Assembly (NCBI RefSeq): GCF_964340395.1
Contig: NC_135560.1
Location: forward strand, 11,842,098 to 11,906,097
Length of the DNA: 64,000 nucleotides
Direction: 5' to 3'
DNA from: Glandiceps talaboti
Lineage: Eukaryota > Hemichordata > Enteropneusta > Spengelidae
The notes below the pieces were generated by a model, which made no database searches, was not told the origin of the DNA, and was given only the letters and a program-made list of their open reading frames with translations. This document shows positions 28,168 to 64,000 of this stretch, piece by piece (the stretch's first letter is position 1; each line of letters starts with the position of its first letter). The translations under genes and the position numbers were made by a program.

Positions 28168-28492
28168 GCATGGTTATCTAACAAGGGAGGTATTTAATGA
28201 TAAAGGGATGTACTCATGTACTCCAATACCTATTGACATACTACATGTACTCACAGTGGTATTCAAAAAATGTATACTTATTGTACATTACATGTAATCT
28301 GCATTACTAATGTTTAGCTTACTTTGGAGTGGTTTGATGATTGAAAAGTTTACTCAAAATAGAGCGTCAATAACTATTTATGGGAAAAAATATGTAGGCT
28401 AATACTAATGTATTATTTTACATGTTAATTACACTAATTAACACTTGTTTAACATGCATTTTTATCTAACAAGAGAGATATTTAATCATGAT
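28155..28492. repeat. Pair of ~45-bp direct repeats flanking ~245 bp
   Basis: 'gtttaacatgcatggttatctaacaaggg...' at about 28155-28200 recurs as 'gtttaacatgcatttttatctaacaagag...' at about 28447-28492. The first copy coincides with the 5' break of the LINE fragment. Confidence 0.6.
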
Positions 28493-36900: not shown

Positions 36901-39357
36901 AGTTAAAAAGTCTGTACTTCGGGTCTGTACTGTGGTGCCTTTGCATTTATTTATTGTTTTCATTTTTCCTCAGAAATTCAGAACAATGAACCAGACGTCG
37001 AAATGAAAGAATACTCTCCCTTCCATGTTCCCAATTCAATTCCTGGCAAATTTATATGGATTATAGGATTTCCTATAAGCATTGTATTCTATTTCACTAT
37101 CCCTGACTGCAGTCTTCCAAGATGGCGCTCGTGGTTTCTCTTCACATTTTTTATGTCAATGGTATGGCTTGGCGCTATCAGTTACGTCATCATCTGGATG
37201 ATTGACGTCATGGGTAAGTGCGTGTCACGTGACTATAACATCATCAAATCACCATATGCTTGCGTTATATTTTGCGTAGCGTTTATTCTAAAAACAGACA
37301 GACTTGGCGATGAATATTTTCAGGTGCAAATTCTTCAAAGCATCACACATTACTCTTTCATGTGATGCTTCAGACACACACTAACTTTTGTCACCATGTA
37401 TGCAAATTAGACAGCTAGCTCCGTATAAAATCTCCTCATATAACTTTGGTAATGACTTCGTTTTTTCTCATGTATGATACCCTCCTTTTATGTTGTTTTT
37501 TTAAATATTTTTTTTATCAAACTTTAACTGTACATGTAGCGGCGATCATCTCTCTGCTAATTCTATGCTAACTCTATGCTAATTCTATGCTAATACTTGT
37601 AGTATACAGAACCTAAATACCCCACAAATGGGTGATGAGGCGAACACAGAGGACAGAGTTTGTCATGTGTTGCATTAAGCTACGCTTTCGCTTGTGAAGT
37701 CTCGCCTATTTACATACGGTCACAGGACAGTTGGGGAGGGGGAGAGGGTTCTCTCAGCAAGAGCCGGTGTACAATATCTGACATATGTAAATTAATTTAT
37801 ACAATCTATAAGGGTTATGCTTTTGGTTTTGTTATTGTTATTGTGTATGTTGTATGTTAGCATATTTTTTTAGTTTATCTACTGCTCATCTTTGTTTTGT
37901 TTTTTTGTATTTATCGATTTTCCAGTAAATTCAATCAAATAAATTAAGCCATACTACACAAGAGTGGTTTGAGCCCTCCCACCTTTTAACACATATAGAT
38001 TTGTGCCTCTTGATTTGTAAGCTTTATGTAAAATTTGTAAGCTTTATGTAAAATTTGAACCTTGGACTTTTTACCCCTATTGTCGTGCCGAAATATAGAT
38101 AGAGTTTAGACTCCTAGTTTTGGTACATTTGTAGAGTTTGTACAGTATCTCGCACCCTTTACGGTATACCTGTACCCTTTCTCCTTCTATTTACCCCTGC
38201 AACCCCACACTCCACTCCATCCCCATCCCTGGCTACGGAATACACCACATTTACTCGCGAGATTATATTGTAACTCCTCATCACCCACTTTGACGGCGAG
38301 AGTTTCTGTTATCACTTATAGCGTTAAAACAAGCCCGGCCTGTTGTTGGTGTTGATAGGAACCACGTGGTTCGAAATTCTTTAGGAGACCAAACTTGTGA
38401 ATTTATAGGGAACGTCCATACCTAAGTTGAATTCTCGAAACAAAGATGATCTCATCACTCTTTCTCGGGTTGCTTTGCATTCATTTCAAACTTTTATAGC
38501 GTCATATACAGGGTTCCATTAACGGTGGTGTGTTCCAAAATGATTCTTTCTATATTCATAACTACATATAATTATATCAAATCGATTCGTTATTTATCTA
38601 TGTTAACATTCATTTACTTTTATTTGTCATTGAAGGCTTCGTCTTTGGGATTCCGGATATTATAATTGGGTTGGTATTTGCAGCAATAGGCAGTAATGCA
38701 CCAAGTCTAGTTGTCAGTATCTTGGCTGCAAAGAAAGGTAATTATGCCTCTATTGTTATCTTAATTTCGGATTTGTGTGATTCAGACACGTTTACTTACG
38801 AGTTCATATACATACATTATCAGATTATGATTGCTGTCACTGTCTGGCCACAATTTGGCGTGAATATTCTTAATGGGTTACTCTTTAAGTTTAATCGGTT
38901 TGATATTGGGAATTTCAATATGGCGGCCATTTTCCAAGATGGCCACTATGATATATCGTGAAATCTCATATTATACAAAGACGTTAATCATATCTTACCG
39001 CTTTACGTTGAGGGTGTTTACATGTATATAATTGTTTTCATTTTAGGGTACGTTGACATGGCTATTGCAAATGCTTTTGGCAGCAATGTGTTCAACATTC
39101 TACTGTGCCTTGGACTACCATGGATGGTCAGTTCTCTTCTACACCCAATTGATGGTTGGCATGCCATCTGGATCGAACGTGTGAACATGGTTTATATCGC
39201 TGTTATATTGTCGCTATCAGGCTTACTACCCGTACTGTGTTTGGCTTTATCTCGGTGGAAGCTTATACGTATAAATGGCATCATTCTGCTGTTTATCTAT
39301 ATTTTAATAATAACATCGGCAGTACTATACCAAATGCTTCAACGACAATATTGTTGA
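30915..39357 (+). CDS. NCKX/SLC24-like cation/Ca2+ exchanger, divergent, eight exons
   Basis: SLC24 proteins exchange Na+ for Ca2+ plus K+ across membranes. Exons are 30915-31101, 33133-33216, 33556-33659, 34561-34661, 36398-36627, 36974-37213, 38636-38737 and 39047-39357, all in phase, giving 452 aa. The N-terminus NCTP...LPTHLFTEEQLRHGAV and the first membrane helix match the NCKX pattern. Alpha-1 repeat: IPEGVAGATLVAFGSSAGEL (residues 66-85; family SSAPEL). Then FRLDWWPVFRDTSFY, a charged cytosolic loop, and a second helix cluster. Alpha-2 repeat: GIPDIIIGLVFAAIGSNAPS (320-339), then MAIANAFGSNVFNILLCLG (354 onward). The family acids at the SVPD and SNVFD positions are Ser339 and Asn366 here. 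The start is uncertain: an in-frame ATG exists at 30849 and an acceptor-like AG just precedes 30915. Any upstream signal-peptide exon is not visible. Confidence 0.87.
34437..34456 (-). promoter_or_regulatory. Three tandem AAGGTCA half-sites in exchanger intron 3
   Basis: On the minus strand the sequence reads as overlapping TCAAGGTCA units, the extended half-site used by monomeric nuclear receptors (NR5A/ERR class). It lies about 105 bp before exon 4. It may equally be a short simple repeat. Confidence 0.3.
35650..35800. repeat. Degenerate ~27-bp 'tatatgatgtgca' repeats
   Basis: Six irregular copies in exchanger intron 4. Confidence 0.6.
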
Positions 39358-42745: not shown

Positions 42746-45700
42746 TTAGTTGGTACACAGTACTTCTCTGACGTGAGCTTGTCTTATAGAAAACATCATT
42801 GATAGGTCGATATTTAAGGTGTATGGAATAATCCTTTGCATGTCATTCACATCAAATGATTTTAATTCTAAGCTGATATATCTTTCGAATAATTCGGGAT
42901 CTCCATCCAATGCAATCAACATTTCCCAATCTGTAGGTTTCCTCAGGGCCCCTTTCACAAGACGATATATGCTTTTCAGTTTCATCTTTTTGTGGACGGC
43001 TTTGTCTACCTCAAGACCAATTGATTGCTTCTGTAAATTATCTTCTACATGGTTGATGATATGTACGGATCTATACGGCCATTCATCTAACATGATGGTC
43101 CACAAAACGACCTCTCGCGGCAGAAAAAGTGGACCTCCTAAAACTTTAACCATGTGTGCTGTCAGGCAAAGCAGGTTGAAAATGCGTCGAATATTTCTAG
43201 GGTTAGGAGAAATGTATTTCACCAAGCCACCATCTTCGAACTCTCTCAGAAGATCATTCATGTATTGGTCCTGGTAAATCATATCTCTGCCAAAGACCTT
43301 GACCTCCAAAAGCTCCCTCTCTTCCCCATCCTTTTCGTCGTGTGACCAAGAAAGCGAGGAGGAGTGAACACTAGAAGATGGTTTATACGTTGATGCACGC
43401 GGCTCTTCTGTCACATTTTCCTCATCAAGAGCTCGACGTGGTTCTTTCTCGTATTTGTCAAGGTAGTAAGCATCTTCGATCAGCGACTCAAGAAACTTGT
43501 TTGTTTTACTGCTAGTCATCAGTGGGATACTGAACGGAATCTGGATCAGTTTCTTTAGGTATTGACTGCCAGTCCAGTACGAACTCTTGGCAACGGCACC
43601 AAGATTTTGATCGATAGCTTGTACGACGATTCGTGGATCGATTGCCAGTATGCAGATGAAGGGTGATCGCTTATCAGACATGAGGATATTGATAGCATCT
43701 ACGACATCGACGATTTTCTTTGGAGGACATCGGTCAAGTTCATCTACCGTTATAATAACTCGAATTGGTTTCTTTTCATAACCAGCAATCCAATTGACCA
43801 AGCTCGATGCAGTCAGCACCTCGCATTTGATGTCACCCATGAATCCTAGTTTCGTCGAGAAATCTGGTTTGCTCATCATTTTCTCAATCTTCGATTGTTG
43901 AGAGTACAGGAAGATGATCAACCCACTCCAGATACCCTTGATGTTGGTCACCACGGCAACACCCATGATGGTTGCAAGTGTTCCCCCGACTGCAACGAAA
44001 CCGAACGAAGTGTCCTTTTTTTCTGATTTCATCGAAATTACGCCAATTCCTAACAATACTGCAATGACAATTACTATGATGATTGCCACAAGTAAACAGA
44101 TGAATAAAGTTAGCACGGAGATGGAAAACATTTTAAAAAGAGTTGTCTTCCGCATTTCATATTCGTCATTCTTTCCTCGCGATGTTTTATCACGGCGGAA
44201 CTGTACCCGTTGATGTTCTGATGGCGTTGTCATGATCCTAAAAAATCGTGTTTTCCAATAGCCGGCATAGCCTTCAACGCGAGAGACAAGCTTGGTTACA
44301 ATGCCAGCCCACAGTGTGTCACTACCTGCGTACTCCCAGGCGTTGAACTTGACGAAGATGAAGTCCATTTCATCAGTTTCAAAGTAAGGAGGAGCTTTGG
44401 GTGGTAGGTAGAAAATGATCATGAGGAGAAGGCGAAAATCTCTCCAAAGACTAGTTTTAGTCGTATTGTATCGCTTCTGCATATCACTCAGGAAGTCTAC
44501 CGAAGACAAAAGAAACACCAGTCAATGAAAAACTAACAGTAAAATATATCAAATATTCCTGCTACATGACAATAACATTATGATAGCAGTCCAAGAGAAA
44601 AAAAAATGTTCTGTGAAGACCAGCATGTCACGACACAACAGTATTTGGCTTATATACAAATCTTAAAAGGTGTTGCATGGACATGACATACCTCACATAA
44701 TTACAACTTAATAATCTAATATAAAATCTTGCTGAGTAAAGTTTACGTTGCGAACAATACTAAACTAATCGCAGATCTAGACTTAGATACGTAAAGGACC
44801 AGGTAATATAATAACTGGTACACTTACCGGTTACACATTTTAGCAAATACGATTTTCCAGACCCCCATGGTGCATATATGCCAACCGTCAAAGGAGTTGA
44901 TATAGCTAGACAGTATAACGCATTGGAAAGACTTCTTGCATAAATGTTGAGACTTGTTGACCCCTTTATAAAGTCACTGTCGTTACGAAGGTCGTACCCA
45001 ATAGAATGTGGTTCTGTTACTGCATAGATAGAATGGAGAAATGTGATGAGTAGATTAATTAGCCAAGAGTTAATAAACGATCTCATCATTTAGCGTGAAA
45101 AGTATGAAACTTTCACGAAATAAACTTATAATATTAATATTCGGGCGGGGGGGGGGGGGGTCATTCAGTGTGAAGTCACCATATAGGTAATGTTAAACCA
45201 CTGACATTAATGAGGGGTTACATATACTACTGTGGAAACCGAGGTTTAGGGTTACTTAGATTGACACAAACTAAAAGATTTGATGTTCGATATGGTATAT
45301 TACACAAGTGGATGATAGAGGTGCCTTCGTTTTGCCTCAGACAAGTAACACGTGTTATATTGCTTGTCTGTGGTTTTACTTATAAAACAACCCTGTAATC
45401 AAGATTGTGTAAACACATGGAAATCTAAAAATGTACACTATTTGATCACTGAGGTTATCAGAAATGACACCCTAATGTGAGTACAATTAAACCAACGTCC
45501 ACTCAAGAGCTGTTATCAACATGTCTTAAAATAATAGTTTGTATCAAGTTCGGTTTCCACTGTCGTAACTCTTCCACAGCATAAAGTCGCCGGAACTTTG
45601 ATTCGGGGAAAAAACTTTTCTTCGAAGAAACTTCTTTTAAAAAAAATCAAAAAAATCACAAACTGGTAGGAATTGCTCCCAGTGAATTTTTCTACTATGC

Positions 45701-46781
45701 AGACATATACACAATCACATTTTAAACTTAAATGTACATATTTATCTTTCCTATAACATCAAACATATAAAGCTCTTCCACCTATAAACCACCACCTTGC
45801 TCAAAACCTCAAGAGCATACTACTTTTCCAATACGCACATCAAATGTTGTCCTTTCCCTCATCCTACAAGTAATTCCTAACATAATACGTGTTGGCGACT
45901 TACATAACGATTCGTCTTCTGGATCAATCATTCTGTACTGTGCAAGCCGTTTCATTCTTTTGCTTGCACACTCCAGGGGCACTTCATTTGTTCGATTCTT
46001 AACATGCTTCAATTCAGGACTTTTCTTCATCAGGTAAACTGCAACATCGTCAGCGTCACATTTCAAAGCTATATGAAGAGCAGTGTCCTGCATCGACAGG
46101 ATGAATAATTTAAGCCATTTGGAAACCCACCATTTTGAATGGTGCATTGTGGGAAATTTAGTATCATTCAATTGATAAGCACTGTTGTAAACAACCTGTC
46201 GCGTTGTATGTGACAACATATGATTTAGTCTTGGTTACCAAGACCATACATTTAAAACAGATTAAACTGAAGACCTTTCTAAGAGCTTCCATTCCAAATT
46301 GTTCTCCTTATAGATGTTTATCGAATACTGACTAAAATGACTTTCGATTAATCACTTACCCCTGTGCTATTCAAGGCTTTGAGGTCATTTTCACAATATT
46401 CTGATATAACCAGGTGTTCCATCATATCAACATCATTCTTCATTGCTGCTGCAGACAAATCATTTGCCTGTAGTCAAAAAAGAAAATAGTGCATTGAACA
46501 GCGCCCTCGTTGTTAATGAAACGGTGATGCAAATGTGGACAACTACGGCTATGGTATTTCGAAATCACAGTTCCTTCTTGTCAAAATTGTAACACTTCTC
46601 TTGTTGCATACCTTATCAACTGGCAACTCGTGACGTTGAAGTTTAATAGAGATGTTGAAGAGGTCTTCATCTTTACCCTCTGTCAGTAGAGATGGCGGCC
46701 CAGCACTTGCATCGTGTTTGTGGAAAAACGCCGTTAGGATTAAATAAGTCGCACCTCCAGCATCAGCCAGCGACTTCTCAT
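42746..46781 (-). CDS. Ankyrin-KAP P-loop NTPase, copy 1 (5' end not resolved)
   Basis: KAP NTPases (Kidins220/ARMS, NKPD1 and bacterial relatives) are membrane-anchored P-loop ATPases. Exons on the minus strand are 46612-46781, 46360-46467, 45904-46087, 44828-45019 and 42746-44496, in phase, about 801 aa. Exon 1 seen here: unassigned region SLADAGGATYLIL...IKLQRHELPVDK. Exons 2-3: two ankyrin-like repeats (ANDLSAAAMKNDVDMMEHLV; DTALHIALKCDADDVAVYLM). Exon 4: Walker A APWGSGKSYLLK. The large last exon has FNAWEYAGSDTLWAGIV, two hydrophobic helices (LFKMFSISVLTLFICLLVAI and the segment ending GLIIFLYS), Walker B VIITVDELDRCPP, AIDPRIVVQAID, a Ser-rich linker and ISPNPRNIRRIFNLL. The first visible exon starts with two bases of a split codon, so an upstream exon is expected unless translation starts at the unspliced ATG at 46812. 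Confidence 0.88.
45145..45160. repeat. Poly(G) run
   Basis: More than 12 G residues in KAP copy 1 intron between ankyrin and P-loop exons. Confidence 0.85.
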
Positions 46782-47373
46782 CTGATTGAAATGTAATAAA
46801 AAACACATACAAATGAAAGTTTGGTACACATTTTGTGAAATCTCGTTAGATTATTCATTAATGACGTATGTGTCAAGAGAGGTGAAATAATCTTCAAATT
46901 CACGTAACTCGAAAGTGATCTTGAAAATGTTCTAAATTTTCTCCATTGTCTGCTTCCGACGAGCAAAACACCTAAACGGAATGATTAACTTTTGCATGTA
47001 TACGTGTTCATCAGGTCACAATAAATAAATAAATAAAAATACCTGTCAAAATCGCGCGACTGTGTGAACTAATATAATGTAGTAATACCTTGAATGAGTA
47101 AAATATACAGTAACAATTTGTAGACTTACTCAATTCAGTAGGATTCACAAATAAGTTGTTTCCAAATAAATTTGTATAACTCATGAAATGTTTGATCTAG
47201 TTACATGCATGGAGTTATTATGAAACCCATTGCGGCAAACAGAAATACAAAAAAAATCGAGAGAAAAAAAGACAAACTGCTCAAGAAATAGAAATTTGCT
47301 TGTTGGAAGCAAGTACTCAAGTTATCTGTGACTTTGAGGAGTCATGAGCCTCATTTTCAATTCCTAAAGGTCA

Positions 47374-47993
47374 TTATCCGTTGACATTGTCCAATAGGAG
47401 GACTTGGTACATACGAAAGCCTACACCTCCGGACCACTCCATAGACCATGGATGTCCGTTATATCCTAGTGTTGTAAACAATCGCCATTTGATGGATTGG
47501 TCAGCTAAACATTGGATTTGTCCGGAATCTATACCATATGCACCAAAATCAAATTTCCATGCAACCATTGGGACGCCCTCTTTAGGCTGAGGAGGTTCAG
47601 TCTGAAATTAAAAGGAAATAGGAGTCTGAAGACTTTCTTCAGTAGTGTAAATATAAAAGGTGTATCCTCTAATTTCCTCATTTTGCAAATAGAATATTAA
47701 TTAATGTTAATTAACTTTCTATGTTTTTCAAATTTGAAAAAAATGGAATATTCAGCGAATCAATATCTAAAACACGTATGTGTGTAACAACAACAACAAC
47801 AACAACAACAGCAACAACAACAACAACAACAACAACAACATCATCGTCATCATCATCATCATACTAACAATGATAACATCAACTAGTAAACCAATACTTG
47901 TAGACACACACACACATAGACACACACAGACACACAGACACACACACACACAGAGACACACACACACACATACATACATACATACATACATAC

Positions 47994-48024
<31 letters not shown>

Positions 48025-51000
48025 CATACATACATACATACATACATACATACATACATACATACATACATACATACATACATACATACATACATACATA
48101 CATACATACATACATACATACATACATACATACATACATACATACATACATACATACATACATACATACATACATACATACATACATACATACATACATA
48201 CATACATACATACATACATACATACATACATACATACATACATACATACATACATACATAAATAAATAAATAAATACATACATACATACATACATACATA
48301 CATACATACATACATACATACATACATAAATACATAAGCTTACACCTTAAATATGGGAACAGAATTTGGAAAATCGTTGCTATTAGGACTCTTTCATTTT
48401 GCGAGTTCTAATCTACAGTTCTAATCCACTGATGCTAACAATAGCAATGGTCGAAAGACTTTTTCCCAAAAGCAGTTTGAGGTAACGCGAATACGTTCGT
48501 TTTTGTTACCCTCACAAAATATAAATATTGAATTATTTATATACCTGATATTACAATACAAATATCATTGTGGTCCGTATACTGTATATAGCAATAGTTC
48601 TGTTTGACCTTTGACATAACGATTCTAATCAGGAATCAAGTCACATGACCCCGATAAAGTATTTTAAACTAGGTGCTCGATGAGTATTTTCTTCTAGGAC
48701 GCTGCTTTATCACATTAGTATACAAAAGACTAATTCTTAAAGGGTCACGAGCTGAGTGTATACGTGGGGGGTGTTACTAATTGAGGGGGTACTCGCAGTA
48801 TTCTACTATGCTTACTGAAATATACTTAACTATCAGTTGTAATTGACTGAACTCAAATCTGATAATGATTTTTACGGCTGACGATTACTATTCAGACGTA
48901 CCAATGCTGCATTCAAAAAAACTTCCTAAAGGCGACAAAACGATTTAGATAACTTGATACATATTAAATCTTCTCCATATCGTACTGTCATTCATTTCAC
49001 TCAAATTGATTTATATTATCATATTAATTTTGACATTGCTACTTTAAGGTAAAGGTTCATCTTTGAACCCCCTCCCCCCGCCCCCGCATTGTTTGGATTC
49101 CATGAGCTATTTTTACGTTGTCGTGACCGTGTTGGTGTGAACCTTGTATACAAGTAGTGTGATAGCTGGTAGATGCGGGTTATAAACTACACGTGTATGA
49201 ATGTACTTGCATACAAATATCACACATTCAATCCACTTGTAATAATCACATGCTCATGGAATTTTGTTGTGATTCTTACCTAACCAGCCAACCAACCAAC
49301 TTACTGACGTACCTACCCACGTGCCTATTTACCAATTTGCCTATCTACTAACCCACGACATATGTCATATAGTACTCATTCGTTTACTCATCCATCCATC
49401 CATCCACCTACCTAGAGCTACTTACCAACCTACCTACCTACCTACCTACCTACCTATCTGATTAAAATGTGATGAGGTGAAAGCGGCTAGATGTCTTTAT
49501 TTACCTCTATTTCTATCGTTTTGTGTCGTTTGTTTTGTTCGGGGTGATCGCCGCCTTCGATCTCCCAGTAACATGTACAAATAAACGACATAAATGATGG
49601 AAATAGAGGTAAATAAAGACATCTAGCAGCTTTCACCACATCAGATTTTAATCAGATTGACTACCTACCTACCCAGACCCATCTCTCTAGCTACCCTACT
49701 GCCCACGTTCTCCTTAGCCGTTCGTCTGCCAACCCGTTTTCGACAACCCACCAGACCACCTACCCACCCACCCACCCACCCACACAGCAAATTAGGGACA
49801 CGTACAATACGTAAATTGTCTTGACTGACACTAACGTTTTTTTCCAAATAGTTATTAGTTCGCACGCTTACATTATTAGTATGAATAATTTGGGCATGAG
49901 ACTTATTTCGACTTTAATGTAGGTCACACTCAAGAGTTCTCAACAATTTATAGTCCATGTACGTAAAAAACACAAAAATGAAATAATATGCGATATTAAT
50001 AAACTTTTAGCTATTTAATCCATCCATACTTCATTAAAGTTTATAAGTTGTCACTGAAGATTCGTCATATTTTGAATTTACTTATGATGTATAAGGTATT
50101 TAATATATTAATATTAAGATCTAGGCTAATTAATTTTAGTATTTGACCTTCACATAAGTACTATAATCGTTACGCCAAATCACTTCTTACTTAATAATTA
50201 AGACCACTTCAAAAATAGTTTAGGTATAGTAAAGTCTCATACTCTCGCGTCTCATATACAAAAATTACCTTGTCATCTGAATTATGTTCAGCCATCCACG
50301 AATGATAGAATGACCCGGCTCTCCATCCACATCGCATACCAACAACCTTGTGTTGTTCACCTCGTTCGTACTGGCCATGCTTCAGTGAATACTTGAGTTT
50401 AACAGCTTCACGTTCACGGTCAGCGATGTTCAAGATGAATACCCCACCCTCTTCTTGACTTTTACAGAAACGCTAAATGAAAACAAACGTAATCACCGAT
50501 AAATACTTTGAGTGTCTGTGTACACTTATTCTTTTATTTATACTTCTAATATATCCAACCCCAATTACGAATTTCATGTCTGAAACCTTTCAGTTTAAAA
50601 AATACAATACCCTTGCATTGTAACAGTATACAATGCCATTGCAGTGTAACAGTTAAAGGGGCACAAGCTGAGTATATATCATTGGCGTAGCTGTTCTGTA
50701 TATTTAAAAGGTATTTGCATTACCGTACCTACTGAAGCACACTTAACCATCACTTGAAATTGATTGAACCTAAACCTGGTATTCAGATATAACTTGTAAA
50801 CGATCCTAATTACAACGATCCGGTGACGAAATTAATCATAGGTATAGAACTGTTCAAAGAACCCCTACTATGAAATCAACTGTTTTAACAATGCAGAAGA
50901 CAATTGTAGTAATGTCATAAAATGCATGTATCGATATTAGCATATTATACTATAATAGTTTACTCAAGGTTTCATGGAAGTATTATCACTTGAGTAAAAA

Positions 51001-51330
51001 ACTTATAAACTCAGCATTTGCCACTTTAACAATATTGTGGACAGTTTCATTGAAACGGTTAACGAATGTGTGGATAGTTACATTGTGTAAATGTACGAAA
51101 TGTATTTAATGGAACTGAGAACATCGTTGAAGCAAAGAGGATTAGTCGGAGAGGAGTATAATTGTTGTTATATTTCGTGAAATCCTGTTTGTGATGGAAA
51201 TTCAAAATAAATATGTGATATTATGTAAAAACCAAATACAGCATACAAAAAGGACACTTTTAGAGAATAAACGCAAAGCAAGTAACACTATACTTACCTC
51301 TCTTTCGTGACAGAGAATGGTGTGTGTCAT
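47374..51330 (-). CDS. Small stand-alone PAW-like domain protein (tentative)
   Basis: Exons 51298-51330, 50269-50472 and 47374-47601 (all phase 0) give 154 aa. The start MTHTILCHERE is preceded in frame by a stop in the same exon, so the N-terminus is complete; that exon begins at an acceptor (51402-51404), so the 5' UTR is spliced. The body reads VFILNIADREREAVKLKYSL, then GMRCGWRAGSFYHSWM, then MVAWKFDFGAYGIDSGQIQC and SIKWRLFTTLGYNG. The order GW-x-G-x-F, then WKF-x-(6-8)-D-x-(I), then WRL resembles the PAW domain at the C-terminus of peptide:N-glycanase (NGLY1), which binds mannose glycans. No transglutaminase core is present. The domain call is by eye and uncertain; the exon structure is firmer. 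It lies immediately upstream of KAP copy 1 on the same strand. Confidence 0.6.
47788..47868. repeat. (AAC)n/(ATC)n microsatellite
   Basis: CAA units with one GCA interruption, then CAT units, in intron 2 of the PAW-like gene. Confidence 0.95.
47904..48337. repeat. (CA)n then (CATA)n microsatellite, ~370 bp of tetranucleotide
   Basis: A short imperfect CA tract leads into about 90 CATA units, with a brief AAAT interruption near 48260-48275. Open frames of Met-Tyr-Val-Cys or Thr-Tyr-Ile-His type across it are artefacts. Confidence 0.98.
49378..49455. repeat. (CATC)n/(CTAC)n microsatellite, left part
   Basis: CCATC and CCTAC units. The matching CTACC/CCCA units resume after the hairpin element, at about 49660. 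Confidence 0.85.
49456..49657. mobile_element. Hairpin MITE inserted in a CTAC microsatellite (202 bp)
   Basis: ATCTGATTAAAAT at the left end and ATTTTAATCAGAT at the right end are exact complements. Pairing continues through GTGAAAGC, CTAGATGTCTTTATTTACC and CTATTTC for about 75 bp per arm. It interrupts CCTAC repeats on both sides, so insertion into the repeat is inferred. Confidence 0.88.
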
Positions 51331-52600
51331 ATCGTCCTATGATACAAATACTGATGTTGTTTGTAGTGTTCCAACTCTTGAAATTTGGTCCCAGTGGTGA
51401 TCTGAAAAAAAAAATGTTTAGTGCAATCATATTACATGCAATATCATGAAAATATCAGAAGTGTCTTAGTTTTGTACACGTATTACGATTTTTATGAGAG
51501 ACCAGATTACTTTCAAACGAACCGACAGTCACGAGTTCTGTCGATCTGACCAATAAAGAAGATTTTATAAATATTTGATCTGTACCGCTTTGAAACCCAA
51601 TAATATTTGTTCATTGTCACCATTGTTACGATACTATTATGTATTATATAATTTCTGGGCCGTTCATAATCTGAGCTAAGAATATAATATTTTGGACTTT
51701 TTCCCCTCTACTCAGAAGGTGTGACTCAGCTGTAGGGGCCCCATGGTACGGCTTAGTAGTACACATATTCGGGAGCTCAACACAAACATTGTCAATAAAG
51801 ATACATTAATATATACCACATCAAGTGTCTTAAATTTTACGAAGACAGAAAATAAAGACCGGCTTTATTATGAATAATCGTATATTTATTGTTTTCACAT
51901 TGCGGTAGAGTGTATCTCGTCGACGAAATTTTACGGTAATCCTTTTTACGTTGTCTTGTCAATTCAGTCAAAAAGTCGGTACATCTATCAAACTACCAAA
52001 CTCAATTCTAGGCAATCCGCAGAAATGACGAGAGTGGAAACGTATCAGATTTTCTCAATATCAAAGTAACTTTTCAAACACCGTTTTTTTATAAACGCTG
52101 GTCTTTTTTCGTAAAAACTGTAATGTCAGTATCTTATTTCTGTTAAAAAACGACACCATATCGACTCCGTTAACGTTGCTTATTTGGATTGTTAGCGTAC
52201 AGTTGCATCTACGCCGAAACAAGTACAAGCTTTTAAGATTTCTCAAAAAATAACTAAAGTAAATGAAGTGAAAAATCGTAGATGTTAACTAGAATCCACT
52301 TACCTTAACTTTCATGAATACAAGTCATCATTGATATGTATTTCTGATGCACACATCATATGTTATATTCACACACGCAGTTTTGTCAATCTGAACTTGC
52401 TTAATATGCTGTTACTGATATATCAGTCATTTGAGTGCTAGATTTTATTTACAAACCCTGACCTTTAAGGCTAATTGTATTCAAAGTATACTTTCAAAAT
52501 AAACTTTCTGTAAAATTGGGTGGTAGTTCATCTACATCTATTTTAGTCTTCAGACCCGTACAGTTCAGTTCAGGTCAATGAGCGGCGTGCTTTACAAGAG
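51331..52600 (-). other. Spliced 5' UTR and upstream region of the PAW-like gene
   Basis: The 5' UTR runs to 51401, where a strong acceptor (long T tract then CAG) sits on the minus strand. A good donor (AAG before GTAAGTGG) at 52304 could end an upstream non-coding exon. The transcription start is not seen. Confidence 0.4.
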
Positions 52601-52735
52601 CTAGTGTCACACACCTTGCACAATTGTTAAAGTTTATTTGTCTACGTACAGACAAGTCAGTGCAACCGATATTGTTGATCTTTCCCACTCTCCCATACTT
52701 TGATGTTGTGCGACGATCCCTCAAGCGATCCTAAA

Positions 52736-54440
52736 ATATGCACGGCAGGCTTGCTGATTGGTTATGTCATAGTGCCATGTCACCCTAACTCGAACTAAAT
52801 TGATACGAAACAATATAGAAAAGTTTCTTGGTTTCGTAAAATCAACTGTAAATTTATCTAACGCTATTAACGTTTTACTAGTTGATTTGGTTTTTAAAGT
52901 TTAAATAATACCACAGAAGACTTTACAGTTTCTAATATTCCTCAGAATTTATTTGATCTTTTACAAAAACAACAGTGGATAATACATTTATACCATAAAC
53001 CCCTTATTTGATGATATATGATAATGGTGATAACAACATTTAAACTAAATAATGCTAGAAATTATTTAGTAATACGACATGATCAAGAATTGAACTGGAT
53101 TGATATACCAATACATTCATTTACAATTAACATCTGAAAAAACAAAACAATTATGAATAGCAACAACAAATTCAAAAGGCTTATAAGTAATGATACATAG
53201 ATGGTATTATAGTTGTAATTACGAACACTCATTGAAAAATTGAAAACGAATTATCTTACTAATCTCATTATTATATGATACACTAAAGATGGAGCTCAGA
53301 TTTAGATATAGAATTAAAAATGGTAGCACTATCTCAGCAAATAGTAAATGACTTTACAACCGTAAAGAATGGTAAAACCGCTATATAGATTGCATAAAAT
53401 TGAATACTTGAAACACATTTGATAAATTCTTTTCAAATATATTGATAACATGTACCTCAAGATCATGAATATTAATAGTTATAAGAATTAATAACGGTAC
53501 TATAAATGCTAATTTTCAAGGAACAATCATTTTCAAAATGAAATATCTCCTTATCAAAATAATACTTATATCAGTATATTTATATTAAATTATTATAATA
53601 TTAATTGATTTGAAATATACAGATAAAATATAAAACTTAATTATGATATATAATGATTAGTGATAAATACCAACTATTTAATGAGTTAATAAACTATTTA
53701 GAAAGAGTTTGCAGTGTGGGACACTCGTATAAATTACTAAGCGGTATCAATAAAGATATTTTGATAACTGCAGGAATATAGCAGTTAGTGCTGTTGTACA
53801 TGTTGTTCTAGGTTTTGTAGCTAGGGTTAGTGTTATTCCTATTGTTATCCAATTATAAACCAAACTTTTGAAATTGGATGAGAAAAAAAGAAAGATTGAA
53901 AAGTCCAACATAGGAATTACAAGCAGCCTTTCACATATACATGAAGTAAGATATATGGAGAGAACGCTCAAGAAGTTATAAAAGAAGTGTTCAATAAGTC
54001 AACTTGTTAGAATTTCAAGCAAATGTTAATTATGTAACTTCTAGAAAAGTTAATGAAGAAGCCCAAACTAAATGGGTATACTTATAGTGATTATAAATCT
54101 TTAGTTTTTTTTTTAAATTATAAAATGACAACATAGAATCTAAGCCTTGCTGTTATCAAAGTTCATAAAATAACATGTGAAAGAAATTATCAAAAAATAA
54201 TTTGGCTACACATATAGTTGGGAATTAACACCTATTGTGCAAAAGAAGCATATTAAACAACGAATAATATATCAATATATAATTTGATCAAATCCGTTAA
54301 ATACTGGTAGTAAATATATTACATTATTAAACTTCTTTGGATGATAGAATTAACTCACATTTTGTTAATTATTTAAATGAGAACATTATCAATCATTTAA
54401 TTACATCTGTGTTGGATGAACAGATAAAACCAACCATTTT
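52736..54440. other. AT-rich 3' flank of KAP copy 2
   Basis: Very AT-rich, with no exons. Homology with the 3' flank of copy 1 starts only around 54440 (matching about 42610), at 'tagagggcggtagtact'. Confidence 0.6.
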
Positions 54441-54765
54441 ATATTATTAATGTTAGAGGGCGGTAGTACTTTGACAGACGACATGGTATTTGCTATGGAT
54501 TTGCGTTGCACGATAACTCTCTTGTGTGCATCCTGTCCAGTAAATAAACCACTGACGCCAATTCAGAATCACAATCACTTCCTTCGTCAATGCAGGAAAC
54601 TATGTATAAAACGAACAAAAACTATAAGTAATCAGGAGATAGAACAGTTCTGTGTTGCCCCAAGTGCAGTGCCTCTTTCCTATTTAGAGCACTGCACTGT
54701 GCCATCTTCCTATTCAACAGGATCAATAAATGGAAAAAATAATAATTAATTCGATTATTGTTCTC

Positions 54766-57700
54766 TTATTTGGTACACAGTACTTCTCTGATATGCGCTT
54801 GTCTTATAGAAAACATTATCGATAGGTCAATATTTAAGGTGTATGGAATAATCCTTTGCATGTCATTCACACCAAAGGATTTTAATTCTAGGTTAAGGTA
54901 TCTTTCGAATAATTCGGGATCTCCATCCAAGGCAATCAACATCTCCCAGTCTGTAGGTTTCCTCAGGGCCGCTTTCACAAGAGGGTATATGCTTTTCAGC
55001 TTCATCGTTTTGTGGACGACCCTGTCTACCTCAATACCACTTGATTGCTTCTGTAAATTATTTTCTACATGGTTGATGATATGTACGGATCTATACGGCC
55101 ATTCATCTAACATGATGGTCCACAAAACGACCTCTCTCGGCAGAAAAAGAGGGCCGCCTAAAACCCTAACCATGTGTGCTGTCAGGCAGAGCAGGTTGAA
55201 AATGCGTCGAATATTTCTAGGGTTAGGAGAAATGTATTTCACCAAGTCACCATCTTCGAACTCTCTCAGAAGATCATTCATGTATTGGTCCTGGTGAATC
55301 ATATCTCTGCCAAAGACCTTGACCTCCAAAAGCTCCCTCTCTTCCCCATCCTTTTCGTCATGTGACCAAGAAAGCGAGGAGGGGTGAACACTAGAAGACG
55401 GTTTGCGTGCTGATGGACCTGGCTCTTCTGTCACTTTTTCCTCGTCAAGTGCTCGTGGTTCTTTCTCGTATTTGTCAAGGTAGTAAGCATCTTCGATCAG
55501 CGACTCAAGAAACTTGTTTGTTTTACTGCTAGTCATCAGTGGGATACTGAACGGAATCTGGATAAGCTTCTTTATGTATTGACTGCCAGTCCAGTACGAA
55601 CTCTTGGCCACGGCACCAAGATTTTGATCGATAGCTTGTACGACGATTCGTGGATCGATTGCTAGTATGCAGATGAAGGGTGATCGCTTATCAGACATGA
55701 GGATATTGATAGCATCTACGACATCGACGATTTTCTTTGGAGGACATCGGTCAAGTTCATCAACTGTTATAATAACTCGAATTGGTTTCTTTTTGAAACC
55801 TGCAATCCAATTGATCAAGCTCGATGCAGTCGACACTTCACATTTGATGTCACCCATGAATCCTAGTTTCGTCGAGAAATCTGGTTTGCTCATCATAGTC
55901 TCTATCTTCGATCGTTGGGAGTACAGAAAGATGATCAACACACTCCAGATACCCTTGATGTTAGTCACCATAGCAACGCCCAAGATAGTTGCAAATGTCC
56001 CTTCGACTGCGACGAAAGCTAATGAGGTGTTTCCTTTTCCTGATTTCATCGGAATTACGCCAGTTAATAGCAATACTGCAATGATGATAACTGTAATGAT
56101 TACGACAACTGAACAAATGAATAAAGTTAGCACGGAGATGGAAAACATTTTAAAAAGAGTTGTCTTCCGTATTTCATATTCGTCACTCTTTCCTCGCGAT
56201 GTCTTATCACGACGGAACTGTACCCGTTGATGTTCAGTTGGCGTTGTCATGATCCTAAAAAATCGTGTCTTCCAATAGCCGGCATAGCCTTCAACGCGAG
56301 AGACAAGCTTGGTTACAATGCCAGCCCACAGTGTGTCACTACCTGCGTACTCCCAGGCGTTGAACTTGACGAAGATGAAGCCCATTTCATCAGTTTCAAA
56401 GTAAGGAGGAGCTTTGGGTGGTAAGTAGAAAATGATCATCAGGAGAAGGTGAAAATCTCTCCAAAGACTAGTTTTAGTCGTATTGTATCGCTTCTGCATA
56501 TCACTCAGGAAGTCTACCGAAGACAAAATAAACACCAGTCAAGGGAACACTAATTATAATAGTAAGGCATATCAAATATTCCACAAGTTACATAATATGA
56601 TAGAGGTGGAAAAAAGTCTCTTATGACCAGTATGTCTCGACGACGTTTGCAGCTTATATACAAATCTTAAAAGGTGTTACATGGACATGACATACCTTAC
56701 ATATTTACAACTTAATAATCTAATATATATAAAAATCTTGGTGAGTAAAATTTACGTTACGTTGCGGAAATTACTCAACTAATTGTAAACTTAGCGCGCC
56801 CCTCGTCTAAATGTCCAGGTAGTATAAGAACTGTTACACTTACCGGTTACACATTTTAGCAAATACGATTTTCCAGACCCCCATGGTGCATATATGCCAA
56901 CCGTCAAAGGAGTTGATATAGCTAGACAGTATAACGCATTGGAAAGACTTCTTGCATAAATGTTGAGACTTGTCGACCCCTTTATAAAGTCACTGTCGTT
57001 ACGAAGGTCGTACCCAATAGAATGTGGTTCTGTTACTGCATAGATAGAATGGAGAAATGTGATAAGTAGATTATTAACCAAGTTGGCATGAAAAGTATGA
57101 AAACTGAAGAAATACGGTTATCATACTGGCATTGTTCTGAGGAGATGAAATGTTTTACTTCCCGTGAAAAAACAACTATTCTAAGATAACATTTGGTCCA
57201 GCCAGAAGTTCAAGTTATTCTGTTATATATACTTTTTTCTCATTGGCGATGTGATTACTTGATTATTTCATTTTCGACCTCTGGCAAATAAATAATATAA
57301 ATACAGATTTCACGCAACAACAAAAAAAGATTCGACTTTTACAAAAAAAAAACTAGCGGGTGCCTCTTATGTGGGTCCAGGTGACGCTTTTATCAGTTCG
57401 TTTCTATCTGTTGAAGTTCTGATTGAACACTATATGATTGTTATAACATGAGGCATTCTATCAGTAATTAACAAAGTTATAGGACCCTGGCTCCTACGGT
57501 GTTTATGCTATGATAACTTATTGCTGTTAATTAAGTTATATCTTTGCATGAAACTTGTCTCATTACCACAAGCAAGAAAACACATCGGAGATTTTTCCGG
57601 GTTGTATTCAGTGTGAAGTCATCAAGTTCTAAAATCGTATTACTAATGGATACATCTACTATACCTCGTAAAGTCACTGGAACATTGACTCAGAAGATAT

Positions 57701-58873
57701 GTTTTTCTTCGAAGAAACATGTCAGCCTGACGCGTCTTTTCTATATCATCAAATATAACTTACATCACCTCAAGAGCATACTACTTTTTCAATATGCACA
57801 TCGAATGTTATCCTTCCCGGTTAAGTAATTCCTAACATAATACGCGTTGGTGACTTACATAGCGAAGCGTCTTCAGGATCAATCATTCTGTACTGTGCAA
57901 GCCGTTTCATTCTTTTGCTTGCACACTCCAGGGGTACTTTATTCATCCGATTCTTAACATGCTTCAATTCAGGACTTTTCTTCATCAGGTAAACTGCAGC
58001 ATCGTCAGCGTCACATTTCAAAGCTACATGAAGAGCCGTGTCCTGCACCGAAATATATGAATAATTTAAGCCATTTGAAACCCTACCATTTTTAACGGTG
58101 CACTGTGGGAAACCCTGTGTGATTCCGGCAGTTGTAGCACTGTTACGGTAGCAAACAACCTGTCACATCGTATGTAACAACATTAGTGTTACCTAGACCC
58201 TTCAGGGAGTGCTCTGTTTCTCGCTGTCAAAGATTAGTTATTAGCACCACAACAGTGCTTTGTGACTGAGCATGCCCAGTCTTGATAGCAAGTTGGTTAT
58301 TAAAGTACATGTCTTACACCGGATGTATAGATATGATACTACACATTTCACCACTTCTATGTGATTGTTGGTTTAGCTGAGAATGATGTCATTATACCAA
58401 GTTTTTCCATCAAATACGAAATCACCAACTGATTAAGGAGTCACTTACCCCTGTGCTATTCAATGCTTTGAGGTCATGTTCACAATATTCTGATATAACC
58501 AGGTGTTCCATCATATCAACATCATTCTTCATTGCTGCTGCAGACATATCATTAGCCTGTAATGAAAAAGCCCATAATAGTGCATTGAACAGTTCCCTCT
58601 TGTTAATGAAACGGTGATGCAAATGTGGACAACTACTTCTATGGTATTTTGAAACTACTTTTCCTTTCCTGTTATAATTGTAACAATTCTCTCGATGTAT
58701 TACCTTATCAACTGGCAACTCGTGACGTTGAAGTTTAATAGAGATGTTGAAGAGGTCTTCATCTCTACCCTCTGTCAGTAGAGATGGCGGCCCAGCACCA
58801 GGATCGTCTTTTGGGAAAAACGCCGTTAAGATTAGATAAGACGCACCACCAACATCAGCCAGCGACTTCTCAT
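54766..58873 (-). CDS. Ankyrin-KAP P-loop NTPase, copy 2 (5' end not resolved)
   Basis: Exons on the minus strand are 58704-58873, 58449-58556, 57859-58042, 56844-57035 and 54766-56513, with the same sizes and phases as copy 1 except for one codon fewer in the Ser-rich linker. Walker A (GSGKS), DELDRC, the two-helix membrane hairpin and both ankyrin-like repeats are intact. By my count it differs from copy 1 at about 53 of 589 residues in the long exon, about 20 of them in the 78-residue membrane segment. Upstream homology with copy 1 continues past the first visible exon but is cut at 59386 by the duplication junction, only about 510 bp beyond that exon, so promoter or first exon may be displaced. 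The gene is otherwise open and looks functional. Confidence 0.88.
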
Positions 58874-59386
58874 CTGATTGAAATGTAATTAAAAAACACG
58901 TACAAGTGAAAGTTGGGCACACATTTTGTGAATTCTGGAAAGATTACTCACTATTATGACCTAGTTGTCAACAGAATTGAAACAATATTTACTTGATTGA
59001 AACAAATTAACAACTCATCATTTCAAAATTGATCTTGAAAATGTACTAAATTTTGTCCATCGTCTGCTTCGGAGGAGCAAAACATCTGAACGAATAACTT
59101 TTGAGTTCATGCGTGTTCATTAGCACACATTAATTGAAGAAGTTCTTGTCAAAATAAAAAAAAATCCTGTGCGGCGTAGGGAATAAATGTTTTGTAACAA
59201 GTCCTTGACTGTGAAAAGGCAGTCACAATCTGTAGACCTACTCATTTCGGTGAGATTCACAAGTGATTTTCTTTTTACAGTGAACTAAATTTGTATAATA
59301 AATGATTTTTTAGCTTGTTGCACGTGTGGAGTTATTGTGAAACCCCTAGAGGCATACAGAAATATAAAACAGAAAGATCGAGAGAG

Positions 59387-62300
59387 ATATGCACGGCAGG
59401 CTTGCTGATTGGTTATGTCATAGTGCCATGTCACCCTAACTCGAACTAAATTGATACGAAACAATATAGAAAAGTTTCTTGGTTTCGTAAAATCAACTGT
59501 AAATTTATCTAACGCTATTAACGTTTTACTAGTTGATTTGGTTTTTAAAGTTTAAATAATACCACAGAAGACTTTACAGTTTCTAATATTCCTCAGAATT
59601 TATTTGATCTTTTACAAAAACAACAGTGGATAATACATTTATACCATAAACCCCTTATTTGATGATATATGATAATGGTGATAACAACATTTAAACTAAA
59701 TAATGCTAGAAATTATTTAGTAATACGACATGATCAAGAATTGAACTGGATTGATATACCAATACATTCATTTACAATTAACATCTGAAAAAACAAAACA
59801 ATTATGAATAGCAACAACAAATTCAAAAGGCTTATAAGTAATGATACATAGATGGTATTATAGTTGTAATTACGAACACTCATTGAAAAATTGAAAACGA
59901 ATTATCTTACTAATCTCATTATTATATGATACACTAAAGATGGAGCTCAGATTTAGATATAGAATTAAAAATGGTAGCACTATCTCAGCAAATAGTAAAT
60001 GACTTTACAACCGTAAAGAATGGTAAAACCGCTATATAGATTGCATAAAATTGAATACTTGAAACACATTTGATAAATTCTTTTCAAATATATTGATAAC
60101 ATGTACCTCAAGATCATGAATATTAATAGTTATAAGAATTAATAACGGTACTATAAATGCTAATTTTCAAGGAACAATCATTTTCAAAATGAAATATCTC
60201 CTTATCAAAATAATACTTATATCAGTATATTTATATTAAATTATTATAATATTAATTGATTTGAAATATACAGATAAAATATAAAACTTAATTATGATAT
60301 ATAATGATTAGTGATAAATACCAACTATTTAATGAGTTAATAAACTATTTAGAAAGAGTTTGCAGTGTGGGACACTCGTATAAATTACTAAGCGGTATCA
60401 ATAAAGATATTTTGATAACTGCAGGAATATAGCAGTTAGTGCTGTTGTACATGTTGTTCTAGGTTTTGTAGCTAGGGTTAGTGTTATTCCTATTGTTATC
60501 CAATTATAAACCAAACTTTTGAAATTGGATGAGAAAAAAAGAAAGATTGAAAAGTCCAACATAGGAATTACAAGCAGCCTTTCACATATACATGAAGTAA
60601 GATATATGGAGAGAACGCTCAAGAAGTTATAAAAGAAGTGTTCAATAAGTCAACTTGTTAGAATTTCAAGCAAATGTTAATTATGTAACTTCTAGAAAAG
60701 TTAATGAAGAAGCCCAAACTAAATGGGTATACTTATAGTGATTATAAATCTTTAGTTTTTTTTTTAAATTATAAAATGACAACATAGAATCTAAGCCTTG
60801 CTGTTATCAAAGTTCATAAAATAACATGTGAAAGAAATTATCAAAAAATAATTTGGCTACACATATAGTTGGGAATTAACACCTATTGTGCAAAAGAAGC
60901 ATATTAAACAACGAATAATATATCAATATATAATTTGATCAAATCCGTTAAATACTGGTAGTAAATATATTACATTATTAAACTTCTTTGGATGATAGAA
61001 TTAACTCACATTTTGTTAATTATTTAAATGAGAACATTATCAATCATTTAATTACATCTGTGTTGGATGAACAGATAAAACCAACCATTTTATATTATTA
61101 ATGTTAGAGGGCGGTAGTACTTTGACAGACGACATGGTATTTGCTATGGATTTGCGTTGCACGATAACTCTCTTGTGTGCATCCTGTCCAGTAAATAAAC
61201 CACTGACGCCAATTCAGAATCACAATCACTTCCTTCGTCAATGCAGGAAACTATGTATAAAACGAACAAAAACTATAAGTAATCAGGAGATAGAACAGTT
61301 CTGTGTTGCCCCAAGTGCAGTGCCTCTTTCCTATTTAGAGCACTGCACTGTGCCATCTTCCTATTCAACAGGATCAATAAATGGAAAAAATAATAATTAA
61401 TTCGATTATTGTTCTCTTATTTGGTACACAGTACTTCTCTGATATGCGCTTGTCTTATAGAAAACATTATCGATAGGTCAATATTTAAGGTGTATGGAAT
61501 AATCCTTTGCATGTCATTCACACCAAAGGATTTTAATTCTAGGTTAAGGTATCTTTCGAATAATTCGGGATCTCCATCCAAGGCAATCAACATCTCCCAG
61601 TCTGTAGGTTTCCTCAGGGCCGCTTTCACAAGAGGGTATATGCTTTTCAGCTTCATCGTTTTGTGGACGACCCTGTCTACCTCAATACCACTTGATTGCT
61701 TCTGTAAATTATTTTCTACATGGTTGATGATATGTACGGATCTATACGGCCATTCATCTAACATGATGGTCCACAAAACGACCTCTCTCGGCAGAAAAAG
61801 AGGGCCGCCTAAAACCCTAACCATGTGTGCTGTCAGGCAGAGCAGGTTGAAAATGCGTCGAATATTTCTAGGGTTAGGAGAAATGTATTTCACCAAGTCA
61901 CCATCTTCGAACTCTCTCAGAAGATCATTCATGTATTGGTCCTGGTGAATCATATCTCTGCCAAAGACCTTGACCTCCAAAAGCTCCCTCTCTTCCCCAT
62001 CCTTTTCGTCATGTGACCAAGAAAGCGAGGAGGGGTGAACACTAGAAGACGGTTTGCGTGCTGATGGACCTGGCTCTTCTGTCACTTTTTCCTCGTCAAG
62101 TGCTCGTGGTTCTTTCTCGTATTTGTCAAGGTAGTAAGCATCTTCGATCAGCGACTCAAGAAACTTGTTTGTTTTACTGCTAGTCATCAGTGGGATACTG
62201 AACGGAATCTGGATAAGCTTCTTTATGTATTGACTGCCAGTCCAGTACGAACTCTTGGCCACGGCACCAAGATTTTGATCGATAGCTTGTACGACGATTC

Positions 62301-64000
62301 GTGGATCGATTGCTAGTATGCAGATGAAGGGTGATCGCTTATCAGACATGAGGATATTGATAGCATCTACGACATCGACGATTTTCTTTGGAGGACATCG
62401 GTCAAGTTCATCAACTGTTATAATAACTCGAATTGGTTTCTTTTTGAAACCTGCAATCCAATTGATCAAGCTCGATGCAGTCGACACTTCACATTTGATG
62501 TCACCCATGAATCCTAGTTTCGTCGAGAAATCTGGTTTGCTCATCATAGTCTCTATCTTCGATCGTTGGGAGTACAGAAAGATGATCAACACACTCCAGA
62601 TACCCTTGATGTTAGTCACCATAGCAACGCCCAAGATAGTTGCAAATGTCCCTTCGACTGCGACGAAAGCTAATGAGGTGTTTCCTTTTCCTGATTTCAT
62701 CGGAATTACGCCAGTTAATAGCAATACTGCAATGATGATAACTGTAATGATTACGACAACTGAACAAATGAATAAAGTTAGCACGGAGATGGAAAACATT
62801 TTAAAAAGAGTTGTCTTCCGTATTTCATATTCGTCACTCTTTCCTCGCGATGTCTTATCACGACGGAACTGTACCCGTTGATGTTCAGTTGGCGTTGTCA
62901 TGATCCTAAAAAATCGTGTCTTCCAATAGCCGGCATAGCCTTCAACGCGAGAGACAAGCTTGGTTACAATGCCAGCCCACAGTGTGTCACTACCTGCGTA
63001 CTCCCAGGCGTTGAACTTGACGAAGATGAAGCCCATTTCATCAGTTTCAAAGTAAGGAGGAGCTTTGGGTGGTAAGTAGAAAATGATCATCAGGAGAAGG
63101 TGAAAATCTCTCCAAAGACTAGTTTTAGTCGTATTGTATCGCTTCTGCATATCACTCAGGAAGTCTACCGAAGACAAAATAAACACCAGTCAAGGGAACA
63201 CTAATTATAATAGTAAGGCATATCAAATATTCCACAAGTTACATAATATGATAGAGGTGGAAAAAAGTCTCTTATGACCAGTATGTCTCGACGACGTTTG
63301 CAGCTTATATACAAATCTTAAAAGGTGTTACATGGACATGACATACCTTACATATTTACAACTTAATAATCTAATATATATAAAAATCTTGGTGAGTAAA
63401 ATTTACGTTACGTTGCGGAAATTACTCAACTAATTGTAAACTTAGCGCGCCCCTCGTCTAAATGTCCAGGTAGTATAAGAACTGTTACACTTACCGGTTA
63501 CACATTTTAGCAAATACGATTTTCCAGACCCCCATGGTGCATATATGCCAACCGTCAAAGGAGTTGATATAGCTAGACAGTATAACGCATTGGAAAGACT
63601 TCTTGCATAAATGTTGAGACTTGTCGACCCCTTTATAAAGTCACTGTCGTTACGAAGGTCGTACCCAATAGAATGTGGTTCTGTTACTGCATAGATAGAA
63701 TGGAGAAATGTGATAAGTAGATTATTAACCAAGTTGGCATGAAAAGTATGAAAACTGAAGAAATACGGTTATCATACTGGCATTGTTCTGAGGAGATGAA
63801 ATGTTTTACTTCCCGTGAAAAAACAACTATTCTAAGATAACATTTGGTCCAGCCAGAAGTTCAAGTTATTCTGTTATATATACTTTTTTCTCATTGGCGA
63901 TGTGATTACTTGATTATTTCATTTTCGACCTCTGGCAAATAAATAATATAAATACAGATTTCACGCAACAACAAAAAAAGATTCGACTTTTACAAAAAAA
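59387..64000. repeat. 6,651-bp tandem duplication, unit 2 (incomplete at window end)
   Basis: Corresponds to 52736-57349, with no difference found over 4,614 bp. It ends at the window edge inside the intron between the P-loop and ankyrin exons of KAP copy 3. Confidence 0.93.
61417..63686 (-). CDS. Ankyrin-KAP P-loop NTPase, copy 3 (partial, runs off window)
   Basis: The last two exons (63495-63686 and 61417-63164) are identical in sequence to those of copy 2. They encode the Walker A exon and the long exon with membrane hairpin, Walker B and C-terminal helical part. Ankyrin and N-terminal exons would lie beyond 64000. The gene is intact as far as visible. Confidence 0.88.

Follow-up and report, generated by a model that had tools for sequence, protein, structure and literature searches.

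The KAP family includes the vertebrate protein NKPD1, and PAW is a mannose-binding module familiar mainly from peptide N-glycanase (PNGase, NGLY1), in which it sits C-terminal to the transglutaminase core. The PAW domain of PNGase binds mannose moieties (PMC9102325). KAP NTPases carry membrane segments inside the NTPase itself, and have been suggested to assemble or disassemble signalling complexes on the cytosolic side of membranes; in Kidins220/ARMS, the KAP NTPase with its internal membrane segments follows N-terminal ankyrin repeats, and the whole protein comprises 12 ankyrins, four transmembrane segments, a proline-rich region, a SAM domain and a PDZ ligand (PMC4632323). In bacteria, QatA and PifA are anti-phage KAP ATPases, and Tmn is a defence protein in which a KAP NTPase occurs together with two transmembrane domains of an unusual kind (PMC11846954). 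Here, we analyze a window of 64,000 nt from the hemichordate Glandiceps talaboti (contig NC_135560.1, positions 11,842,098 to 11,906,097), the whole stretch being free of N, with a G+C content of 33-39% in 4-kb steps and with intron-bearing genes. The sodium/calcium exchanger and HSP20 gene pieces elsewhere in the window, together with the KAP-ankyrin make-up, are in keeping with an animal origin. The locus under study probably consists of one complete gene that joins KAP, ankyrins and a probable PAW domain (copy 1) and of a second related copy (copy 2); for both, a function is proposed from sequence.

The model of copy 1 comprises eight exons on the minus strand and encodes 938 amino acids, in the order PAW-like region, ankyrin repeats (ANK), KAP (Table). 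All seven introns are of the GT-AG type, all phases are compatible and the reading frame is kept through to the C-terminus, VREVLCTN. An acceptor-like splice site at about 51401, upstream of exon 1, suggests a further exon in the 5' untranslated region. An ACAT microsatellite of about 95 copies (47956-48336) lies within intron 2 of this model.

The KAP_NTPase profile (PF07693) matches residues 318-801 of copy 1 with an E-value of 7.7e-38 (130.8 bits, compared to the Pfam cutoff of 20), and matches the copy 2 protein equally clearly (E 2.6e-38, 132.4 bits, same cutoff). In copy 1, the Walker A motif is APWGSGKS (residues 341-348), which starts with alanine and therefore does not match the strict G-x4-GK[ST] pattern, and the Walker B motif is DELDRC (residues 607-612). 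Between them, Kyte-Doolittle hydropathy gives a strong hydrophobic segment at residues 486-504 and another one within approximately 520-552, that is, in the position in which KAP proteins carry a membrane hairpin inside the ATPase, and such a hairpin is predicted here. Ahead of the KAP part there are about two ankyrin-like repeats: the Ank_2 profile scores 29.2 bits (E 1.4e-06) in the slice of exons 4-7 of copy 1, above its cutoff of 27.3, and falls under this cutoff in the longer proteins, with 25.5 bits in copy 1 (residues 198-273, E 2e-05) and 25.1 bits in copy 2. Thus, the core that an earlier note on this stretch had read from the letters, namely a KAP NTPase with two ankyrin-like repeats, a P-loop, a membrane hairpin and DELDRC, is borne out by profile matches and motifs in copies 1 and 2, for the ankyrins with scores on either side of the cutoff, and all copies do lie on one strand, as that note had stated, namely the minus strand. 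Pfam matches to Anoctamin and Claudin_2, below cutoff and located over the membrane hairpin, were rejected as composition, and so were the matches to SV2A from a PDB sequence search with exon 8 (seven distinct sequences, E 2 to 2.7, hydrophobic part only).

The region in front of the ankyrins had been called novel in the earlier note, which does not define its N-terminal exons; however, the three 5' exons of copy 1 (47427-51330) fall within the range 42746..63686 that it covered. For residues 1-194, PAW (PF04721) is the sole Pfam match at E ≤1, with an E-value of 0.027, and covers positions 20-164 of the 197 in the profile. The comparison to the PNGase PAW domain (PDB 2g9f, 2i74) is collinear over most of the domain. 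We also compared these residues to shuffled sequences, using the letters of the mouse PNGase PAW domain (PDB 2g9f) as the reference for all shuffle tests. The local alignment score of 59 (z 6.0) was reached by 0 of 1000 shuffles, and the global score of 30 (z 3.8) by 4 of 1000. Most of the signal resides in exon 3, the local score of which was likewise reached by none of 1000 shuffles. The score is 52 for exons 1-3 and 59 once exon 4 is added, a value matched by 26 of 2000 shuffles of exon 4 at a gap cost of 11/1, and by 39 of 2000 at 9/1. Rather than novel, the N-terminal region is thus probably PAW-like, a reading that we consider quite likely to be correct; that this PAW is fused to the ankyrin-KAP part we regard as somewhat likelier than the converse. 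If the order PAW-ANK-KAP is true, a mannose-binding module is joined to an ATPase core that is common to Kidins220 and to bacterial defence proteins, and an animal KAP protein acquires a concrete, testable ligand.

Using the 800 aligned codons of copies 1 and 2, all of which are open, we estimated a synonymous divergence (dS) of 0.161 and a nonsynonymous divergence (dN) of 0.040, i.e., dN/dS of 0.246, at 91.6% amino-acid identity. Exons are 92.9-99.5% identical, whereas introns are identical at 75-88% of aligned bases. Because of the low dN/dS and because exon identity exceeds intron identity, the two copies are considered constrained paralogues, and by this measure both are under purifying selection; 800 open codons at such a ratio also mean that the ankyrin-KAP frame is not a chance one. 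The divergence is uneven. The P-loop exon has one synonymous change and no amino-acid changes (synonymous change per site, pS, 0.022), whereas, of the 68 positions that differ, one being a gap, the hairpin (residues 481-560, 80 of the 801 residues) has 19, with a Fisher p of 8e-6 that is after the fact, as the hairpin was chosen once the low-identity stretch had been seen. The pS of the hairpin, 0.317, is the highest of eight regions. As synonymous and amino-acid changes are both raised there, the simplest reading suggests that gene conversion acted in patches between the two copies and did not reach the hairpin. Diversifying selection on the hairpin was rejected, given that synonymous change is elevated there as well.

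The third gene claimed by the earlier note requires separate consideration. Copy 2 lies in a 6,651-bp unit that is tandemly repeated, and the part of the second unit inside the window is an exact repeat of the first; for this reason, copy 3 provides no independent evidence. As exons 4-8 of copy 2 adjoin an exact repeat of themselves, only two genes are distinguishable: two loci stand, and the third is a repeat of which the window contains only exons 7 and 8, so that the claim of an N-terminal region, ankyrins and an ATPase in each of three genes is not borne out. The proposed expansion to three genes was partly built on this repeat, and a check against reads is needed before any expansion is counted. 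The homology between copies 1 and 2 in intron 3 ends at 59385 and the repeat begins at 59387; PAW exon 3 of copy 1 has its near edge 163 bases beyond that homology end. No second copy of the peptides of exons 1-3 was found in the window (tblastn matches beyond the exons themselves had E-values of at least 0.6). Since the repeat junction cuts intron 3 and since no such second copy is present, copy 2 as assembled is without PAW exons 1-3.

Two origins may be considered for the repeat: either part of the locus was duplicated very recently, or the assembly is wrong here. We give an even chance to a genuine partial tandem duplication of very recent date, under which copy 2 is truncated at its 5' end and lacks the PAW exons, and copy 3 represents the 3' portion of a gene that continues past the window. 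The N-free junction, the exact offset of 6,651 bp and the adjacent older paralogue are in line with this scenario, as is the general knowledge that tandem copies promote further unequal crossing-over; on the other hand, zero differences mean no sign of age, and the window cannot separate such an event from an artefact. The artefact, to which we assign slightly less than an even chance, would make copy 3 and the repeat false, leaving one second gene, with its exons 1-3 next in line at the point where the unit is repeated in the assembly. It would account for the absence of any difference in 4,614 bp, introns and 3' flank included, when copies 1 and 2 differ at 12-25% of aligned intron bases, and for the break of the intron 163 bases short of the position of PAW exon 3 in copy 1; in three vertebrate assemblies of older date, false duplications made up 4 to 16% (PMC9516828). 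Such duplications are marked by gaps, including those between duplicates on the same scaffold, and by low read depth (PMC9516828), whereas this window contains no N; also, a genuine recent duplication would look alike.

Several observations weigh against the PAW-ANK-KAP architecture of copy 1. First, the PAW match of residues 1-194 reaches 14.8 bits, below the Pfam cutoff of 31.4; PAW is not listed for the whole 938-residue protein at E ≤1, nor for the exon 4-7 slice and the copy 2 protein at E ≤0.1, and phmmer with residues 1-194 returned no PDB chains at E ≤10. The region is below cutoff, yet PAW is its only match and the match is collinear, hence the name PAW-like. Second, exons 1-2 alone do not beat shuffles against mouse PAW (713 of 1000 as good), exon 4 alone does not do so either (110 of 1000), and the support from exon 4 falls to 95 of 2000 shuffles at a gap cost of 8/1. 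Third, the donor of exon 3, which is the best phase-1 GT in that exon, is weak, scoring -0.3 compared to 3.8-7.6 for the other six donors under a matrix of textbook frequencies; read-through of exon 3 meets a stop codon 17 residues on, giving a 154-residue protein, and exon 5 contains an in-frame methionine (AMKNDV), so that the ankyrin-KAP part could start there, without PAW. Fourth, when the two copies are compared, constraint on exon 4 is lower than on most other parts (amino-acid change, pN, 0.058; pS 0.11). Finally, an AlphaFold prediction of exon 8, using an alignment of two sequences, gave a predicted local distance difference test score (pLDDT) of 32.5, too low for the fold to be of use. 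The splice from exon 3 to exon 4, which we infer, is the weak point of the copy 1 model.

An alternative has two genes, in which exons 1-3 are a separate PAW-like gene of 154 residues, and the start of the ankyrin-KAP gene is either the methionine of exon 5, with exon 4 as a leader, or a first exon that has escaped notice. The weak donor, the in-frame methionine, the intact 154-residue frame with its own stop codon, the concentration of the PAW signal in exon 3 and the weak constraint on exon 4 would all fit. However, the PAW alignment continues into exon 4 at about the right spacing, the stand-alone form ends at PAW profile position 109 of 197 while the spliced form reaches 164, and between exons 3 and 4 a search for a first exon starting with ATG gave none (a phase-1 donor score above 3 being required, in intron 3 of copy 1 and in copy 2 as far as the junction). 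We regard two genes as rather unlikely.

Returning to the fused protein, our best explanation, offered tentatively and with a little less than even confidence, is that copy 1 encodes a complete, membrane-anchored PAW-like-ANK-KAP NTPase of 938 residues, with copy 2 as its constrained paralogue, and that the protein works as an ATP switch. The following steps are proposed: (i) the hairpin would anchor the ATPase at a membrane, on its cytosolic side; (ii) the PAW-like domain would bind cytosolic ligands, glycan-bearing or other, as the PAW domain of PNGase does; (iii) the ankyrin repeats would hold a partner; (iv) ATP binding and hydrolysis would switch the assembly of a complex, as suggested for KAP NTPases.

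Compared to the described systems, copy 1 has a collinear, below-cutoff match to the PAW domain of PNGase, and the PAW-like region of this protein is N-terminal and joined to ankyrins and KAP. The difference from Kidins220 drawn in the earlier note holds by description: copy 1 has about two ankyrins, a hairpin, a PAW-like front end and nothing that Pfam recognises after KAP, and no SAM domain was matched by Pfam at E ≤1 in the 938-residue protein. Tmn is likewise comparable by description. The likeness to QatA and PifA is confined to the ATPase core: PADLOC matched QatA (5.7e-16) and PifA (3.4e-13) in this part only, and since PADLOC contains only models of defence systems, its matches lean in that direction; the NCBIfam QatA model matched with E 1.2e-20 and 73.7 bits, far below its equivalog cutoff of 600. 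One PHROG family of unknown function matched as well (E 2.1e-11). Using tblastn with exon 8, we found matches in 40 of 72,556 plasmid records, and among the best 20 of the 40, identity was 21-36%, coverage was at most 50% and seven were annotated as QatA. No relatives were confirmed among viral contigs (6 pattern matches) and genome contigs (56). On sequence grounds, the prokaryotic matches reflect a common KAP core, and nothing more. In searches of the open-licence literature, the titles and abstract openings listed named no animal protein of this kind, which argues only weakly for its absence, and PAW-ANK-KAP proteins predicted from animals may well be present in sequence databases.

An immune role had also been raised in the earlier note, as speculation, through the presence of KAP NTPases in bacterial defence loci; what stands of this link is the ATPase-core homology to QatA and PifA, which does not amount to evidence for such a role. 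In its specific form, the idea is that the protein is an innate immune receptor, in which PAW-ANK-KAP would sense foreign or mislocated glycans and trigger an ATP-driven response at the membrane, similarly to what is proposed for bacterial lectin-fold NTPase systems. Besides the PADLOC and plasmid matches, it draws on bacterial conflict systems in which lectin-fold domains (NPCBM, FGS) are coupled to NTPases, with KAP replacing STAND in some FGS systems (PMC8195603). It should be stressed that the parallel between the protein studied here and these systems is our own, as the section of this source that describes these systems does not name PAW (PMC8195603). Given the defence-only models of PADLOC, the low identity and partial coverage of matches at the ATPase core, and the wide miss of the QatA cutoff, an immune receptor appears distinctly unlikely. 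A broader conjecture, very unlikely in our judgement, is an animal family of lectin-gated membrane ATPases that would work like the bacterial systems with a lectin-fold domain coupled to KAP or STAND, and would serve as cytosolic sensors of misplaced glycans (for example from ruptured vesicles or invaders), with an ATP-dependent membrane response and tandem expansion.

Table. Coordinates (window positions) of the exons of the KAP-ankyrin copies and of the repeated unit.
Feature	Position	Strand	Basis or remark
Copy 1 exon 1 (coding stretch, beginning with the ATG)	51298..51330	-	GT donor; in-frame stop just upstream of ATG
Copy 1 exon 2, PAW-like part 1 (residues 12-79)	50269..50472	-	AG/GT boundaries, phase 0; Pfam PAW match from residue 16
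Copy 1 exon 3, PAW-like part 2 (residues 80-138)	47427..47601	-	Strongest part of PAW alignment; weak donor, GAG/GTGTAG (exon/intron)
Copy 1 exon 4, end of PAW-like region	46612..46781	-	Acceptor, phase 1, no in-frame Met; extends PAW alignment
Copy 1 exon 5, ankyrin repeat	46360..46467	-	Pfam Ank_2
Copy 1 exon 6, ankyrin repeat (DTALHIA...)	45904..46087	-	Pfam Ank_2 and Ank
Copy 1 exon 7, N-terminal part of KAP	44828..45019	-	Pfam KAP_NTPase; P-loop APWGSGKS at 44850-44873 (motif position)
Copy 1 exon 8, KAP ATPase, predicted hairpin, Walker B, stop codon	42746..44496	-	Pfam KAP_NTPase; hydropathy
Predicted hairpin in copy 1 exon 8	~43907-44107	-	
DELDRC in copy 1 exon 8	43727-43744	-	
NPRNIRR in copy 1 exon 8	43184-43204	-	
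Copy 2 exon 4	58704..58873	-	92.9% identity to its copy 1 counterpart; exon boundaries
Copy 2 exon 5, ankyrin	58449..58556	-	96.3% identity to copy 1
Copy 2 exon 6, ankyrin	57859..58042	-	93.5% identity to copy 1
Copy 2 exon 7, P-loop	56844..57035	-	99.5% identity to copy 1
Copy 2 exon 8, KAP ATPase, predicted hairpin, Walker B, stop codon	54766..56513	-	93.1% identity to copy 1; Pfam KAP
6,651-bp unit, tandemly repeated	52736..59386	.	Self-alignment; right edge falls inside intron 3 of copy 2
Second unit, truncated at the window end	59387..64000	.	Identical to 52736-57349 in 4614/4614 bases, introns and flank included
Copy 3 exons 7 and 8	63495-63686, 61417-63164	-	Copy 2 coordinates + 6651

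Other features of the window lie to the left of the KAP-ankyrin locus. Two adjacent open reading frames (ORFs) at 27166-28173 (minus strand), which gave no Pfam match, resemble the end of a reverse transcriptase of the long interspersed element (LINE) type, and ORFs at 13865-17477 (minus strand), two of which were scanned by Pfam and gave no match, have some likeness to a PRCC-like nuclear protein. A minisatellite at 11954-12473 consists of 8.2 copies of a 62-bp unit with 97% match, and a minus-strand ORF overlaps its right end. Within 5816-7925, one plus-strand ORF carries an HSP20/alpha-crystallin domain (7308-7925, E 5.9e-08); it is preceded on the same strand by a long ORF rich in Gln, Arg and Glu, with a 105-bp internal tandem repeat at 6497-6756. 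Finally, ORFs of the sodium/calcium exchanger type are located at 38572-39357 on the plus strand (Pfam Na_Ca_ex, 8e-07 and 7.3e-12).

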